From assembly GCA_012729785.1 (NCBI GenBank), contig JAAYCL010000033.1, positions 1 to 39,564 of the forward strand: a stretch of DNA of 39,564 nt. The letters are read 5' to 3'. This DNA comes from Chlamydiota bacterium. GTDB taxonomy: Bacteria; Auribacterota; Tritonobacteria; UBA1439. Below are positions 1 to 19,524 of the stretch, piece by piece. How positions within the stretch are numbered: position 1 is the stretch's first letter; the number at the start of each line of letters is the position of its first letter. The translations under genes were made by a program, and so were the position numbers. The notes beneath the pieces were generated by a model. The model did not search any database, had not been told where the DNA came from, and saw only the letters and a list, made by a program, of their open reading frames with translations.

Positions 1-45
1 GGCCGGCTTGAGCGGAGCCCTTGAAGGCTCAACCTCAAGCCGGCC
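1..45. repeat. Nested perfect hairpin at window edge
   Basis: Bases 1-12 (GGCCGGCTTGAG) are perfectly complementary to 34-45. Inside the loop, GAGCC at 15-19 pairs with GGCTC at 26-30. The structure precedes the first cassette-like ORF and lies in the AT-richer section. It could be a terminator-like hairpin or part of a recombination site cut by the window edge. No GTTRRRY-type attC core is visible in it on the plus strand, so it is not called attC. Confidence 0.6.
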
Positions 46-114
46 AGGGAGATATGTCATGCCTGATGCTGGTACTCCTGTCGCAGCCGTGAAAATCTTT
101 CACAAAGAAACGTC

Positions 115-438
115 ATGAGCCTTATTTGGTTGAGTTGGGGATTTTACACCAGGGATATTGAGGTGATGACACACAACAATATGGGTGCGGCGCAACTCGG
201 TCTGGGACAGCTAGCAGAGGCAGAGCAGCATTTTGACATGGCCAGACAAATCGACAGCCAAGCCCCACTGCCCTATTACAATCTCGCGTTGTTGGCACAG
301 ATAAGAGGGGATGCTGACAGCGCCAAGGCGTTGCTGGAGAAGTCACAGATACTCGGGTACAGAGGGACAACCTACGATAAGCTGATTGAAGTAGCGGGTT
401 CTGTTCTAGCACAGATAGAAGGTCATGGCGCTGGATAG
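115..438 (+). CDS. Short tetratricopeptide-repeat protein, cassette-borne
   Basis: A 107-residue ORF. Residues about 18-85 form roughly two TPR units: an NNMGAAQLGLGQLAEAEQHF helix pair, then a second unit beginning PYYNLALLAQIRGDADSAKA. TPRs are protein-protein interaction scaffolds; no catalytic domain is present, so the partner is unknown. The frame is open back to base 67 after a TGA at 64-66, and no convincing Shine-Dalgarno sequence precedes the ATG, so the start is uncertain. Only two repeats may mean a truncated remnant. Base composition is far less GC-rich than the LPS cluster to the right. The stop lies 18 bases before an attC-like site, the arrangement of an integron gene cassette. 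It could also be the 3' end of a larger TPR gene with a decayed front. Confidence 0.6.
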   Translation: MSLIWLSWGFYTRDIEVMTHNNMGAAQLGLGQLAEAEQHFDMARQIDSQAPLPYYNLALLAQIRGDADSAKALLEKSQILGYRGTTYDKLIEVAGSVLAQIEGHGAG

Positions 439-456
439 GCATTGATAGATGATGCA

Positions 457-588
457 ATCTAACAAGCGCGTGCAGGCCGACGCCGCTGTCGCGGCCGGTG
501 TAGCGGCGAAAATTGGTTATGTAACGCGGCTTGAATGGAAGCCGATCTCGGTAAACTCGCGGCGCGGCTGACGCGCAGAGCGTTGGCT
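457..588 (+). other. attC-like recombination site 1
   Basis: The left core ATCTAAC (457-463) fits the RYYYAAC consensus. The right core GTTGGCT (582-588) fits GTTRRRY with one mismatch. Inner arm 466-484 (GCGCGTGCAGGCCGACGCC) pairs with 561-576 (GGCGCGGCTGACGCGC) over 16 bp, leaving three unpaired bases, all in the left arm. Imperfect pairing with extrahelical bases confined to one strand is the hallmark of integron attC sites. The length of 132 bp is within the known attC range. The site directly follows one short ORF and the next ORF starts 5 bases after it. No integrase gene is in the window. Confidence 0.68.
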
Positions 589-593
589 CAATT

Positions 594-1082
594 ATGACAA
601 TGACTCTGCAAATAAAGGCAGCAATTCGAGGATTCAACGATATCATTATAGATGGCGTTCCCTTTCTGCTTAGGCAAAACGAGACCGCATTTTTGTCATT
701 TATGTGCTCCGTTGCTGCAATTGATGCTTTGGCAGGTTATCGCTACGAGACAGATAATGTTGGGGAACGTTTTGTAGCCTTCATCATAGACTATTTTCCG
801 GACAGTTATGCCCCCCATGCTAAAAACCTCTATAAGCTGCGGTGTCGCTTGCTCCATAACTTCTCGCCTGCATACTTCACATTGGCTCATGCGCAACCCG
901 CAAAACATCTACATAAAAGTGGGATAGGCGACACAATCCTCAGTGACAATGTATTCTTTGATGACCTGAAAGCAGCTGCTAAGGAATTTTTCACTGAAGT
1001 AGAAAACGATGTTAAGCGCCAGGATGTCATGCATGCTCGTCTTATCAATTTAGACAGAGGGGGTGCTATTTTTTACATATAG
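594..1082 (+). CDS. Cassette-encoded HEPN-like hypothetical protein
   Basis: A 162-residue protein starting 5 bases after the right core of the preceding attC-like site and ending 3 bases before the next one, exactly as in integron cassettes. I do not recognise the family by name. The segment around residues 80-90 reads YKLRCRLLHNF, an R-x4-H motif in a helical context as in HEPN nucleases and toxins, preceded by a helix-rich region (FLSFMCSVAAIDALAGY). HEPN proteins often act as RNases in toxin-antitoxin or defence systems, so such a role is possible here but not shown. The gene is much AT-richer than the neighbouring LPS genes, which suggests acquisition. ATG codons at 594 and 600 are alternative starts; no strong ribosome-binding site is seen. 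Confidence 0.62.
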   Translation: MTMTLQIKAAIRGFNDIIIDGVPFLLRQNETAFLSFMCSVAAIDALAGYRYETDNVGERFVAFIIDYFPDSYAPHAKNLYKLRCRLLHNFSPAYFTLAHAQPAKHLHKSGIGDTILSDNVFFDDLKAAAKEFFTEVENDVKRQDVMHARLINLDRGGAIFYI

Positions 1083-1085
1083 ACG

Positions 1086-1223
1086 GGCTAACCAAGCGCT
1101 GCACCTGACCTGAGAAACGCGGGTTTGTATGATCAGCAGCCCCAGGTGTGGCAAACGTCGGCGATTGTTCTTGTAGGCCGGTGCTGTACTATTTTCTCAG
1201 GCAGGTGAGCTTCACGGTTGAGC
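1086..1223 (+). other. attC-like recombination site 2
   Basis: The left core GGCTAAC (1086-1092) matches RYYYAAC except at its second base. The right core GTTGAGC (1217-1223) matches GTTRRRY exactly. The inner arm GCTGCACCTGACC (1098-1110) pairs with GGCAGGTGAGC (1200-1210), leaving extra bases only in the left arm, including an A that corresponds to an extra A in the first site. The length of 138 bp is typical of long attC sites. It closes the cassette carrying the HEPN-like ORF, and the region after it returns to high GC. Confidence 0.65.
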
Positions 1224-1408
1224 CGACGCGTGCGCGTCGGCTCAACGGGCGGCGGCTGTTCCCAGCCGCTGGCCGGTCCGCGCTGCGCGCGGCCCAACCA
1301 GCGGCTGGAGCCTACGGCCCTGCGGCGAGCGAGCTCGCCTCCGCGTACGCCGCTGATCCGCAGCGCTGCGCCTGAGTGTTCCCCGGCGCGCTGATCCACG
1401 CGCCCGGA
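1217..1408. repeat. Series of strong hairpins, no gene seen
   Basis: This stretch, and the gap on to the next gene, holds no convincing coding frame. It carries a 30-base palindrome at 1217-1246 (14-bp arms GTTGAGCCGACGCG with a 2-base loop, overlapping the right core of attC-like site 2). An 11-bp stem CCAGCCGCTGG (1262-1272) pairs with 1298-1308 and is extended by GGCCG/CGGCC. A near-perfect stem GTTCC..GGCGCG lies at about 1378-1408. The GCTCAAC at 1240-1246 also fits the left attC core, but no matching right core follows. Confidence 0.55.
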
Positions 1409-1566: not shown

Positions 1567-1974
1567 CTACGAAGAATGCGATTGAGCCACGACCAGCACC
1601 GCGTACGCCGCCGCAAGGGTGCGGGAGTGGGAGAGGGAGACGAGGATCCTGGCTTCGGAGGCGATGGGTTCGGGGAGCATGCAATACGGCATGCCCCATT
1701 CGTCGCGTTCGATCGCGACGCTGCGGAAGGGGAGGGGGGGGAGGCCGGCCTGCCGCAGCGCCGCGCGGACCGCGGCCTTGGCGGCGAACCGGGCGGCGAG
1801 ACGCTGGAGGCGCGCGGCGCCCGAACCGCAGTAGGCCAGTTCGGCCGGCGTGAAGAGCCTGGAGAGGAGGCGGGCGCCGAACCGTTTTTCGGACGCCTTC
1901 AGGCGCTCTGTCTCCAGCAGGCAGAGGCCGTGGAACACGGGCGCCGCCGGGCCGTTCCTTCCCGCGGTGCTCAT
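1567..1974 (-). CDS. AcpS-like phosphopantetheinyl transferase, degenerate metal site
   Basis: 135 residues, the usual AcpS length, and last gene of the envelope cluster. The AcpS pattern is recognisable: GLCLLETERL at 16-25, RLFTPAELAYC at 39-49, ARFAAKAAVRAAL at 61-73, DEWGMPY at 91-97 and SLSHSRTLAAAYA at 113-125. Holo-ACP synthases transfer 4'-phosphopantetheine from CoA to a serine of acyl carrier protein and need Mg held by the Asp of G-[IT]-D-[IV] and the Glu of RFAAKEA. Here these positions are Cys18 and Ala67, so both metal ligands are missing. The protein may be inactive, regulatory or use different chemistry. Its ATG overlaps the upstream acyltransferase stop (ATGA). A true acpS would be expected elsewhere in the genome. 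Confidence 0.75.
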   Translation of the reverse strand: MSTAGRNGPAAPVFHGLCLLETERLKASEKRFGARLLSRLFTPAELAYCGSGAARLQRLAARFAAKAAVRAALRQAGLPPLPFRSVAIERDEWGMPYCMLPEPIASEARILVSLSHSRTLAAAYAVLVVAQSHSS

Positions 1975-2987
1975 ACGATCCTGTTCCCGTCGGACCCGCC
2001 GGACGGATTCAGACGGGGCGTTCCTCTCCGCCTCGCGACGTCCTCCGGTCTCGTGCGCCAGCGCCGGTGCATCCAGACCCACTGGTCCGGGTGCTCCCTG
2101 ATGTAGCGCTCGATGACGCGCGACCAGGCCTGCGTGTTGTGCACGAGGTCCGCCTCCCGGTCGCCGCTCCGGCGGAGGGGGATCGGTTCGTCGACGACGA
2201 TCCGGTGTTTCCGCCCCTCCCGGACGATGCGTGCGGGTATGAGCGGGGCGCCGGTCTTCATGGCGATGAGGACCGGCGCGGTCGGGGTGTAGGCGGGGCG
2301 GCCGAAGAACTCCACGAACACCCCGTCGAGCTTGCGGACGTCCTGGTCGGCGAGGATCCCCACCACCTCGTTGTTCTTCAGGGTCTTCAGGATCGCGCGC
2401 GGCGACTCGTCCCGGTAGAAGACCCGGAACCCTTTCGAGAGCCGGAGGCGCGAGAGGAGGCGCTCGTACTTCTCGTAGTAGACCCGCCGGGCGACGACGC
2501 CGCCGTGCAGGCCCACGGAGACGAAGTAGGCGGGGATCAGCTCCCAGTTGCCGAGGTGGCCGGTGATGATGATGATCCCCTTGCCCTTCCGTTTCTCGCG
2601 GTCGATGATCTCCCTCCCCTCCATCGAGACGAGCCGGTGGAGCGCGGCGGAGTCCATCCGCGGGGAGAGGGCGAGCTCCGCCATCGTTTTCCCCTGGTTG
2701 ACGAAGACGCCCCGCGCGATGCGGGCGCGTTCCGCGGCGGTCATCTCGCCGCCGAAGGCGGCGGCGAGGTTGTCGAGCGCCTTGCGCCGTTCGCGCCGGA
2801 GAAGGTGGTAGGCGCACCAGCCCGCGCCCGAGAAGAGGGCGAAGAGGAGGCGGGCGGGAACGACCCGCGCGGCGGCCAGCAGCCCCACCGCCGCGTAGTA
2901 GAGGAGATCCTTCCTGAATCTGTGCCGGACCTTCCTGGGCATCTGCGGCGTCTCTTTCGTCGGGCCGGGGGGCCTTTCAGAGGGCAT
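1971..2987 (-). CDS. LpxL/HtrB-type lipid A acyltransferase (first copy)
   Basis: About 338 residues. Enzymes of this family (LpxL/LpxM/LpxP) move a secondary acyl chain from acyl-ACP to Kdo-lipid A at the inner membrane. The catalytic H-x4-E motif is HLGNWE at about 144-149, followed by the typical region DQDVRKLDGVFVEFFGRPAYT and a TGAPLIP block. A hydrophobic N-terminal helix (LLYYAAVGLLAAARVVPARLLFAL) anchors the protein. The start is ambiguous: GTG 2996, ATG 2987 (preceded by GGGAGAAG) or ATG 2942. The 2987 start overlaps the upstream heptosyltransferase by 11 bases. The stop overlaps the AcpS-like start. A second, divergent copy lies at 13462-14373, so the two probably acylate different positions. 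Confidence 0.88.
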   Translation of the reverse strand: MPSERPPGPTKETPQMPRKVRHRFRKDLLYYAAVGLLAAARVVPARLLFALFSGAGWCAYHLLRRERRKALDNLAAAFGGEMTAAERARIARGVFVNQGKTMAELALSPRMDSAALHRLVSMEGREIIDREKRKGKGIIIITGHLGNWELIPAYFVSVGLHGGVVARRVYYEKYERLLSRLRLSKGFRVFYRDESPRAILKTLKNNEVVGILADQDVRKLDGVFVEFFGRPAYTPTAPVLIAMKTGAPLIPARIVREGRKHRIVVDEPIPLRRSGDREADLVHNTQAWSRVIERYIREHPDQWVWMHRRWRTRPEDVARRRGTPRLNPSGGSDGNRIV

Positions 2988-4528: not shown

Positions 4529-6268
4529 CTAATGGGTATTTGTTAACTCTGTGATCTCTGTGTCCTCTGTGGCAACGATGAGTGCATCCCCGCGGCGGAA
4601 TTCCCGCCCCGTCCTCTTCAGGTACCGCCGCGTCCTCCGCGAGAGCGTGCGCCAGATCCCGGGAAGCTCCGCGCGCCGCGCGGGGCCGAGGTACCATTTC
4701 AAAAACCGCATCCGATCGCGGATCCCGAGCAGGCCGAGGTCGAGGAACGACTTGTTGAGCTGGAGCAGGTTGCGGAGCACCTGCCGCCGGGAGAGGTCGA
4801 GCCGCGTCCGGACGAAGTCGAAGTCGGTGAGGAAGAAGGACGGCGTCCCGTCGCGGTTTGTCCCGACGAGGATGTTGGTCGCCTTCATGTCGCCGTGGTA
4901 GATCCCGACGCGGTGGACCTTCCTGAGGAAATGGGCGAAGAGGCGCATGAACGCCGCGACCTCCGCCTGCCGCGATCCGCCTCCGCGCCCGAGCCCCGCG
5001 AGGGCGTCGGCCAGGTTCACGACGCCCGGGATCTTCTCGGTGACGAGGTAGGCGTTGCGGAGGAGGTTCAGCGCGGAGCGCTCCTCGATCGCGGCCACCG
5101 CCCGCACCGCCCTGATGTTCCGGATCTCGATCGCGTAGGCGCCCCGCCAGGAGCGCAGCGCCTGCGAGCAGCGCCAGAGATAGTTGAACGCCTTCCAGCC
5201 GCGCTTGGGCTTGTAGTGCTTGATGAAGAGGGTGTGGCGGGCGCCGTGGAGCTCGATCTCCCGCTCCCAGAGGTCCTTGCTTCGCGACTCCTTGACCAGC
5301 CGCGCCCCGCCCGCCCGGAGGTCCCCGCCGAGGAACAGCTTCGCCATCCCGCCCCGCCACTCGCCGCGGCGGGCGAAGCCGCTGAATCCCTCGAAGGAGA
5401 GGCGCATGAAGTACTTGTTGTTGGCGAGGCAGCGCCCCTCCCTCCGTTTCCAGAGGCGCCAGCGCATCCGGCGCGTGCGCCGGTCGATCTCCGCCAGGTG
5501 CGCCCGCTTGTCGCGCTCCGAGCGCGCGTCGCCGGCGTAGTACGACTGGAGGAAGAGGAGGCGCTCGGGGGTGCTGAGGGAGATGCTCGCGAACATGTTG
5601 AACTGGGACAGACTGCGGAGCCGGCGCCGGAGGGGGAGCGAGGGGCTCGCGTTTGCCCGGTGGAGGTCGAGGAGGAAGATGCGCTTCCGGCCGCCGGGAA
5701 GCGTTTCGACGAGAAAGTTGCCCGGATGGAGGTCGCGGTGGTAGATCCCGCGGTCGTGCATCCGCCGCAGCAGGACGCCGAGGAGCACGATCAGCCGCCG
5801 CCGCTCCTTCGCGCCCGCCCGCAGGGTCCCGTCGGGGGAGAAGAGCGCCTCCTCGAGCGTCACGCAGTTGAAGAGCCGCACGGTCAGCAGGTAGCTCTCC
5901 CGCAGGACGCCGCCGCGGCGCCGTTCGCCGAAGGCGACCGGCACGACCGTCGGGAGGCCGCGCGCGGCCGCCGCCGTCGTGATGCGCCATTCCCGCCGCG
6001 CCTTGGAACCGCACAGGTTCGCCTTCAGCCACTCGCCCAGGTTCGCGTGCCGGTATATCTTCACCACGACCGGGACCTCGTCGGGATCGCCGGGGAGGGC
6101 GGCGCCGAAGATGATCCGTGCGGGGGACTTCTTGATCATCTGGCCGGCGCCCGCCCTGAGGAGCCGGCGCGGGCTGGGGGATCGGTCGGCGATGAAGAGC
6201 GGGGCGAACGCCGCGTTCACCTTCCAGCGGATGCCGCGCGAATCCTTGACCGTCACGACCTGGGACAT
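4529..6268 (-). CDS. Tandem lipopolysaccharide kinase (two WaaP/RIO-like domains)
   Basis: 579 residues containing two complete kinase-like domains. Domain 1 (about 50-275): Lys70 in VVVKIY, catalytic loop HRDLHPGN at 177-184, metal-binding DLHR at 201-204. Domain 2 (about 340-555): Lys350 in FIKHY, HGDMKATN at 458-465, DFDF at 482-485. Such kinases phosphorylate Kdo or heptose in the LPS core. Both domains keep the Lys/Asp/Asp set, so both may be active. The start ATG 6268 overlaps the upstream ligase-like gene by 16 bases. From Val565 the C-terminal tail (VATEDTEITELTNTH) is encoded by the terminal repeat of the neighbouring GxxExxY element, so the original end was replaced. Confidence 0.85.
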   Translation of the reverse strand: MSQVVTVKDSRGIRWKVNAAFAPLFIADRSPSPRRLLRAGAGQMIKKSPARIIFGAALPGDPDEVPVVVKIYRHANLGEWLKANLCGSKARREWRITTAAAARGLPTVVPVAFGERRRGGVLRESYLLTVRLFNCVTLEEALFSPDGTLRAGAKERRRLIVLLGVLLRRMHDRGIYHRDLHPGNFLVETLPGGRKRIFLLDLHRANASPSLPLRRRLRSLSQFNMFASISLSTPERLLFLQSYYAGDARSERDKRAHLAEIDRRTRRMRWRLWKRREGRCLANNKYFMRLSFEGFSGFARRGEWRGGMAKLFLGGDLRAGGARLVKESRSKDLWEREIELHGARHTLFIKHYKPKRGWKAFNYLWRCSQALRSWRGAYAIEIRNIRAVRAVAAIEERSALNLLRNAYLVTEKIPGVVNLADALAGLGRGGGSRQAEVAAFMRLFAHFLRKVHRVGIYHGDMKATNILVGTNRDGTPSFFLTDFDFVRTRLDLSRRQVLRNLLQLNKSFLDLGLLGIRDRMRFLKWYLGPARRAELPGIWRTLSRRTRRYLKRTGREFRRGDALIVATEDTEITELTNTH

Positions 6269-18618: not shown

Positions 18619-19524
18619 TCACGCCCGCGGGTGGGCCTCCTCGTAGACCTTCTTCATCCGCTCGGCGGTCACGTGCGTGTAGACCTGCGTGGTGGAGAGG
18701 CTCGCGTGCCCAAGGAGCTCCTGCACCGCCCGGAGGTCCGCGCCCGCGTCGAGCAGGTGTGTGGCGAACGAGTGCCGGAGGTAGTGCGGGGAGACGCGCG
18801 CCTCGAGGGCGGCCCTGCGCACGTGCCGGTCGATCACATCCCGGACGGACCTGGCGGTGAGCCGCCCCCCGCCGCGGTTGACGAAGACCGGCGTGCGCGC
18901 CTCACCCCGCGCCCGGAGGGGGCCGAGGTTCCGCGCCTCCAGGTAGGCCATCAGGGCTGCGACGGCGGGCTTCCCGAGCGGGACGAGCCGCTCCTTCTTC
19001 CCCTTCCCCTTCGCCCGCGCCATCTCGCCGAGGAGGTCCAGGTCGTCCGCGTCGAGCGCCGTGAGCTCGCTTACCCGCATCCCCGTGCTGTAGAGCGTCT
19101 CGAGGATGGCGCGGTCGCGGATGTCGAGCAGACGCTCCCCCCCCGCCGACTCGATCAGGCGGCGCACGGCGTCCACGTCGAGGAACCGGGGCAGCGCCTT
19201 CCTGCGCTTCGGGGTCGCGACGCCCGCGAACGGGTTGACCGCCGACATACGTTCGCGGACCATGAAGCGGTAGAAGGAGCGCAGCGACGAGACGAGGCGG
19301 CCGATGCTCGCCCGGGAGAGGCCCGCGGCGGCGACCTCGGCGAGGTACTGGCGGATCAGGGAACGGTCGGCGAGACGCCAGTGGCCTTCGGCGACGCCGC
19401 GGGCCCTCCGCGACAGGAAGGCGGAGAAGCGCTCGATGTCGCGCCGGTAGGCGTCGAGCGTGTGCGGGGAGGCGTCCTTCTCCGCCCGAAGGTAGCCGAG
19501 GAACCTTTCGACGGATGCGTCCAT
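18619..19524 (-). CDS. Tyrosine recombinase XerC/XerD
   Basis: 301 residues, the normal Xer size. Xer recombinases resolve chromosome dimers at dif. An N-terminal SAM-like core-binding domain covers 1-100. Catalytic residues: Arg150 in TGMRVSE, a Lys around 174-177 in GKGKKERL, His247 and Arg250 in HYLRHSF, His273 in LGHASL and Tyr282 in TTQVYTHV. Start ATG 19524 is preceded by AAAGG. The dprA-topA-xer order is conserved in several phyla, which supports a housekeeping Xer rather than an integron integrase. The extra patch of IntI proteins near the HxxR motif is not seen. XerC and XerD cannot be told apart here. Confidence 0.92.
   Translation of the reverse strand: MDASVERFLGYLRAEKDASPHTLDAYRRDIERFSAFLSRRARGVAEGHWRLADRSLIRQYLAEVAAAGLSRASIGRLVSSLRSFYRFMVRERMSAVNPFAGVATPKRRKALPRFLDVDAVRRLIESAGGERLLDIRDRAILETLYSTGMRVSELTALDADDLDLLGEMARAKGKGKKERLVPLGKPAVAALMAYLEARNLGPLRARGEARTPVFVNRGGGRLTARSVRDVIDRHVRRAALEARVSPHYLRHSFATHLLDAGADLRAVQELLGHASLSTTQVYTHVTAERMKKVYEEAHPRA

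Follow-up and report, generated by a model that had tools for sequence, protein, structure and literature searches.

A contig end with two attC sites and a gene-less hairpin cassette: very probably the 3' end of an integron cassette array that has lost its integrase

The first 1,223 bases of the window very probably represent the 3' end of an integron cassette array from which the integrase has been lost. The window covers all of contig C33 (39,564 bp) of genome G000 (2.59 Mb in 45 contigs, completeness 96.6%), most likely a metagenome-assembled genome to judge from its fragmentation and the titles of its relatives; it was compared with a set of 44 genomes of the same phylum. The original prediction, made from the letters alone, had called this region an integron or CALIN fragment, which resolves to an intI-less array, with a truncated intI, a promoter and an attI-like head on another contig (C5). 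That reading stands; what it overlooked is a structured cassette without an open reading frame (ORF) that starts at 1217.

The stretches 457..588 and 1086..1223, both on the forward strand, are integron attC recombination sites. Site 1 has the R'' box ATCTAAC (457-463) and the R' box GTTGGCT (582-588), site 2 has GGCTAAC (1086-1092) and GTTGAGC (1217-1223), and each has one core position off the RYYYAAC / GTTRRRY consensus. Pairing of the inner arms is interrupted by a single extra A, located on the 5' side (L''), in site 1 (AGGCCG-A-CGCCGC / GCGGCGCGGCT) as in site 2 (CACCTG-A-CCTGAGAAA / TTTCTCAGGCAGGTG); both the attC-like cores and the unpaired base confined to one strand had been described correctly. 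Because the extra A lies in L'' in both (the asymmetry of attC), the two sites share the + orientation, and the start of the array is therefore to be expected leftward, off the contig.

A scan for RYYYAAC / GTTRRRY cores with pairing arms returned only these two sites at threshold in the whole window, and even the weaker of their two scores was matched by none of 1000 dinucleotide shuffles of 1-1500; a pattern scan (RYYYAAC...CC) was discarded as far too unspecific. A covariance model (R2), built from 12 attC sites on contigs with a full intI in genomes of the same phylum, neither window site being used, gave site 2 40.4 bits (E 9e-9) and site 1, the low-scoring one of the two, 23.0 bits (E 6e-4), the E-values being rough ones from a home-made model that is neither IntegronFinder's nor HattCI's and whose loops were filled with T as a modelling device admitting long loops. 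The third-best place in the 39.6 kb reached 10.2 bits, so that by this home-made measure both sites lie far over background, the opposite of the sub-threshold scores by which the original prediction was to fall. An earlier model (R1) had missed both sites, which we attribute to their long loops; rebuilt with long loops as R2, it recovered the two. The arm motif of site 2 (AACCAA.CGCTGCACCTG ... CAGGTGAGCTT) is shared with an attC on an intI-bearing contig of another genome (G019). The bottom strands of the two sites, each folded alone as DNA as had been proposed, fold only mildly better than shuffles (z -1.8 and -2.3).

Positions 1..582 (+) hold what the contig start leaves of a gene cassette, its 3' part, with a TPR-repeat ORF of 107 aa (115-438, +) and attC site 1, while 583..1217 (+; TTGGCT...G) form a complete gene cassette with an ORF of 162 aa (594-1082, +) and site 2. 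The spacings that had been pointed out are exact: the TPR-repeat ORF stops 18 bases before site 1, and ORF 594-1082 is separated from site 1 by 5 bases and from site 2 by 3, that is, a short ORF between attC sites of the same orientation, as in a cassette array or CALIN. This ORF had no match in a protein family search and no relatives in the collections of genome contigs and viral contigs; it has a weak similarity (27%) to a hypothetical protein of Arcobacter plasmids. The stretch is AT-richer than the LPS genes that flank it, as had been noticed (GC 0.46-0.54 across 1-1250 vs about 0.70 beyond). On the chromosomal side lie a holo-ACP synthase-like gene (4'-phosphopantetheinyl transferase family; 1567..1980, -) and after it lpxL-type acyltransferase and heptosyltransferase genes. 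The start of the contig (1-45) has an inverted repeat of 12 bp (GGCCGGCTTGAG / CTCAAGCCGGCC) as well as an open frame, the end of which overlaps the TPR ORF by ATGA.

The cluster combines at least two attC having cores, paired arms and an extrahelical base with the lack of a complete integrase nearby, as in arrays classed as CALIN, and the full-length intI of a complete integron is missing from G000, where no gene scored over the TIGR02249 cut-off (an assembly gap remains); it is because the assembly holds no complete intI that we speak of a decayed integron or CALIN. Three other recombinase genes of G000 were considered as IntI and rejected, being XerC, XerD-like and phage-type. One of them lies in the window (18622..19524, -) and is a XerC-type tyrosine recombinase and no integron integrase (it passes the TIGR02224 cut-off with 348 bits, and its TIGR02249 score of 124 bits falls short of the 265 required).

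The search for intI did recover its 5' remnant, at the heads of arrays on C5 and C20. The left ends of the arrays on these two contigs, in G022 and in G023 (JAQUPF010000002.1, bacterium isolate STD1_218, of the same family as G000 and another genus) show homology to the region that adjoins G020's complete intI (contig C368), and the homology of the C5 and C20 ends stops at ..ACAAG|TT, beyond which the sequences diverge. By their sequence, these ends appear attI-like; they stand beside an intI remnant only and off the window's contig. The heads carry the first intI codons on the opposite strand, 51 of them matched on C5 (with stops), 25 on C20, 26 in G023 and 41 on G022:C4; a conserved peptide left of the arrays, at one time considered a small gene, is the intI N-terminus read from this remnant. 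A promoter-like TTGACA-17-TATTCT on C5 points into the array, as does TTGACA-17-TATGCT at the same place in G020. It is unusual for promoter and attI-like end to be kept, as they are here at several independent loci, when intI has shrunk to a few dozen codons. Heads of this kind without a complete intI were seen at C5:40267-40605, C20:74763-74894 and C23:71637-71753 of G000, with further ones on G022:C4, C47 and C115 and on G023:C2, and the point at which intI is broken varies between loci.

Sites of the attC type elsewhere in the genome had been named as decisive for the original prediction, and the covariance model found them on three further contigs of G000 (three on C5, three on C36 and one weak on C20), where the 3' halves of the hairpin cassettes described below also score as attC. 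In G021 and G022 the genes of the C5 flank lie next to the acpS-lpxL-heptosyltransferase block of the window, with no array in between. Judged by this synteny, C5 and C33 most likely flank a single array that was inserted there, the stretch between the two contigs being unassembled. An integron integrase, since lost or unassembled, would have inserted circular cassettes at attI, recombining attI with attC between G and TT, and the intI gene would later have been shortened to its first codons, leaving a frozen array whose transcription could nevertheless start at the promoter that survives next to the attI-like site; its last cassette would be the gene-less unit of 150 bp, whose strand folds strongly. 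That promoter and attI-like site were kept repeatedly after the loss of intI suggests selection for expression of the frozen array.

We consider it unlikely that the integron is still a live one, its complete intI (or a second platform) sitting unassembled between C5 and C33 or in another place after cassette repeats had broken the contigs. The attC arrays of G000 do sit at contig ends, its completeness (96.6%) is below 100%, and draft genomes are cautioned to inflate counts of CALIN (PMC9024848); however, left of the attI-like site both C5 and C20 hold only the 5' remnant of intI and then chromosomal genes, and the same truncated heads occur in G022 and G023, where that of G023 lies in the middle of a contig of 249 kb. 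The loss of the integrase is the reading that we retain. Taken over the whole comparison set, attC matches were found in 24 of the 44 genomes and a full intI over the cut-off in 13 of the 44 (two of them in the same family as G000). Integrons are best known from pathogens and from Proteobacteria; here a poorly studied phylum holds them, with arrays in several states of decay.

The overlooked unit, 1217..1374 (+), begins exactly at the R' box of site 2 and is a damaged copy of a recurrent ORF-less structured cassette, GC-rich and about 150 bp long, recognized by BLAST and by a home-made covariance model (R3) built from the gene-less unit itself (85.1 bits, with a rough E of 1.7e-13). It consists of a 5' hairpin at 1217-1246 (GTTGAGCCGACGCG-TG-CGCGTCGGCTCAAC) followed by an attC-like part. 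We call it damaged because its halves belong to two subtypes (by BLAST, 1217-1343 is 98% like the C5 copy and 1320-1366 is 91% like a C20 copy) and because it lacks the 3' GTT; the chimera, joined at the repeat, could be an artefact of assembly. Other copies in G000 lie on C5 (two), C20 (two, one of them shared with the start of C36) and C36, with a decayed one on C42, and G023 has two. The copies measured are 149-163 bp long and almost fully base-paired. Complete ones start at G|TT, in most cases the one belonging to a canonical attC just before, and end in a GTTRRRY-like box (GCTATGT in one G023 copy), after which comes a cassette ORF. Cassettes with G|TT edges, an attC of their own at the 3' end and no ORF were thus found on C5, C36 and C20 and in G023 and G021; the window copy shares this layout without the 3' GTT.

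R3 also matched copies that were absent from its training: one on G021:C61 (70 bits), a contig with a full intI, directly after a canonical attC; three on G006:C364 (30-43 bits), likewise a full-intI contig, two of them directly after a canonical attC; and one on G019:C26 (62 bits). The ORF-less structured cassette is thus recurrent across genera of the phylum, also in arrays that bear intI. Searches of plasmid, phage and viral collections returned no copies. Rfam 15 gave no match in the window, and outside it the best was naRNA4 (33.5 bits, E 0.017), under the gathering score of 59.5; the structured gene-less family matched no Rfam family, even though ORF-less cassettes as such are known.

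That these repeats (1217-1374 and those on C5, C20 and C36) are instead MITE- or REP-type transposon-like elements inserting at the R' boxes of attC seems to us quite improbable. The copies are strongly palindromic, dispersed and mostly placed directly after an attC, as such elements would be, but both of their edges fall at the cassette crossover (G|TT at the 5' end and a GTTRRRY-like box at the 3' end), their 3' halves score as attC, and cassette ORFs come after them. Moreover, when the ends are brought together at G|TT, the arrangement expected of a circular cassette, three copies regain a perfect inverted repeat of 25-29 bp and others, including that of G021, one with mismatches; the same test gave nothing for the second G023 copy (G023b) and G006. 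Scarcely credible is the notion that the hairpins are terminators or ordinary intergenic stem-loops with coincidental attC-like features, for while they are GC-rich and lie downstream of ORFs, the independent model score, the asymmetric extra base, the R''/R' cores, the ORF spacing and the recurrence of such features next to intI in relatives all argue against it.

The unit folds into one hairpin followed by a stem enclosing two hairpins, with z = -9 both as DNA and as RNA. Compensatory changes occur in 16 of 56 pairs among six copies (0/500 shuffles, a count that is no probability because the six copies are related), and sliding the pairs by 1-3 columns abolishes this signal. The cassette fold and the fold of the preceding attC exclude each other, since the R' box of that attC forms part of the first cassette hairpin: when site 2 is folded alone, R'' pairs with R', and when it is folded together with the next 27 bases, R' moves into the cassette hairpin and R'' is free. 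The C5 copy forms this hairpin too, with the attC inner arms still paired. A cassette hairpin holding R' might thus win over the R''/R' pairing of the preceding attC, although this step is a weaker one, and on these thermodynamically predicted folds a gene-less cassette could shield the attC that precedes it; a role of the conserved fold as RNA is equally conceivable. More tentatively, and with considerable doubt, we propose that gene-less cassettes act as a structural switch in which the 5' hairpin takes R', blocks or redirects recombination by IntI and so stabilises the array, while in the circular form the same arm would pair across the crossover point. Control of cassette recombination at the level of DNA is a role for which the structured gene-less cassette is a testable candidate.

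CALINs and ORF-less cassettes are both already known. The present array resembles a CALIN in its attC sites (at least two) of one orientation, with cassette ORFs between them and no complete intI in the neighborhood, and differs in that its head keeps the truncated 5' end of intI, a promoter and an attI-like site; unlike a CALIN, too, G000 has two such heads and one remnant (C5, C20 and C23). In Xanthomonas, deletion or truncation of intI with the arrays retained is well documented, and its sedentary chromosomal integrons share with ours a chromosomal array, a truncated or deleted integrase, frozen cassettes and CALINs at several loci (PMC12444791). They differ in belonging to another lineage and in their locus, which is beside ilvD there and beside acpS here, and G000 has several arrays with attI-like heads. 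Among known gene-less cassettes, those of Treponema and Vibrio carry promoters (PMC6557892, PMC11014356) and one of Xanthomonas carries the small RNA sRNA-Xcc1 (as cited in PMC8876359). They and the present family alike lack an ORF, have their own 3' attC and lie among gene cassettes; what sets the present family apart is its length of 149-163 bp in the copies measured, its nearly full pairing and a conserved fold with compensatory changes, together with a 5' hairpin that takes in the R' box of the attC before it and a circular form with an inverted repeat across the crossover point.

Some further observations concern the other arrays. Positions 1-120 of locus L063 (from C36) are identical to 5064-5183 of locus L064 (from C20) over 120 bp, both being contig ends, and the end of C20 probably joins the start of C36 inside a second cassette array. 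Family matches were obtained for three cassette ORFs of G000: an SseB C-terminal domain (L062, 4796-5188), the Asp/Glu racemase family (L063, 818-1672) and a GAF domain (L063, 1967-2647). Finally, R3 found a weaker form of the unit, without the 5' hairpin, in a Bacteroidales MAG (SLOS01000018.1, 57.6 bits; L081 6275-6430, -), where by our reading it lies just upstream of a parD/parE-like toxin-antitoxin pair.
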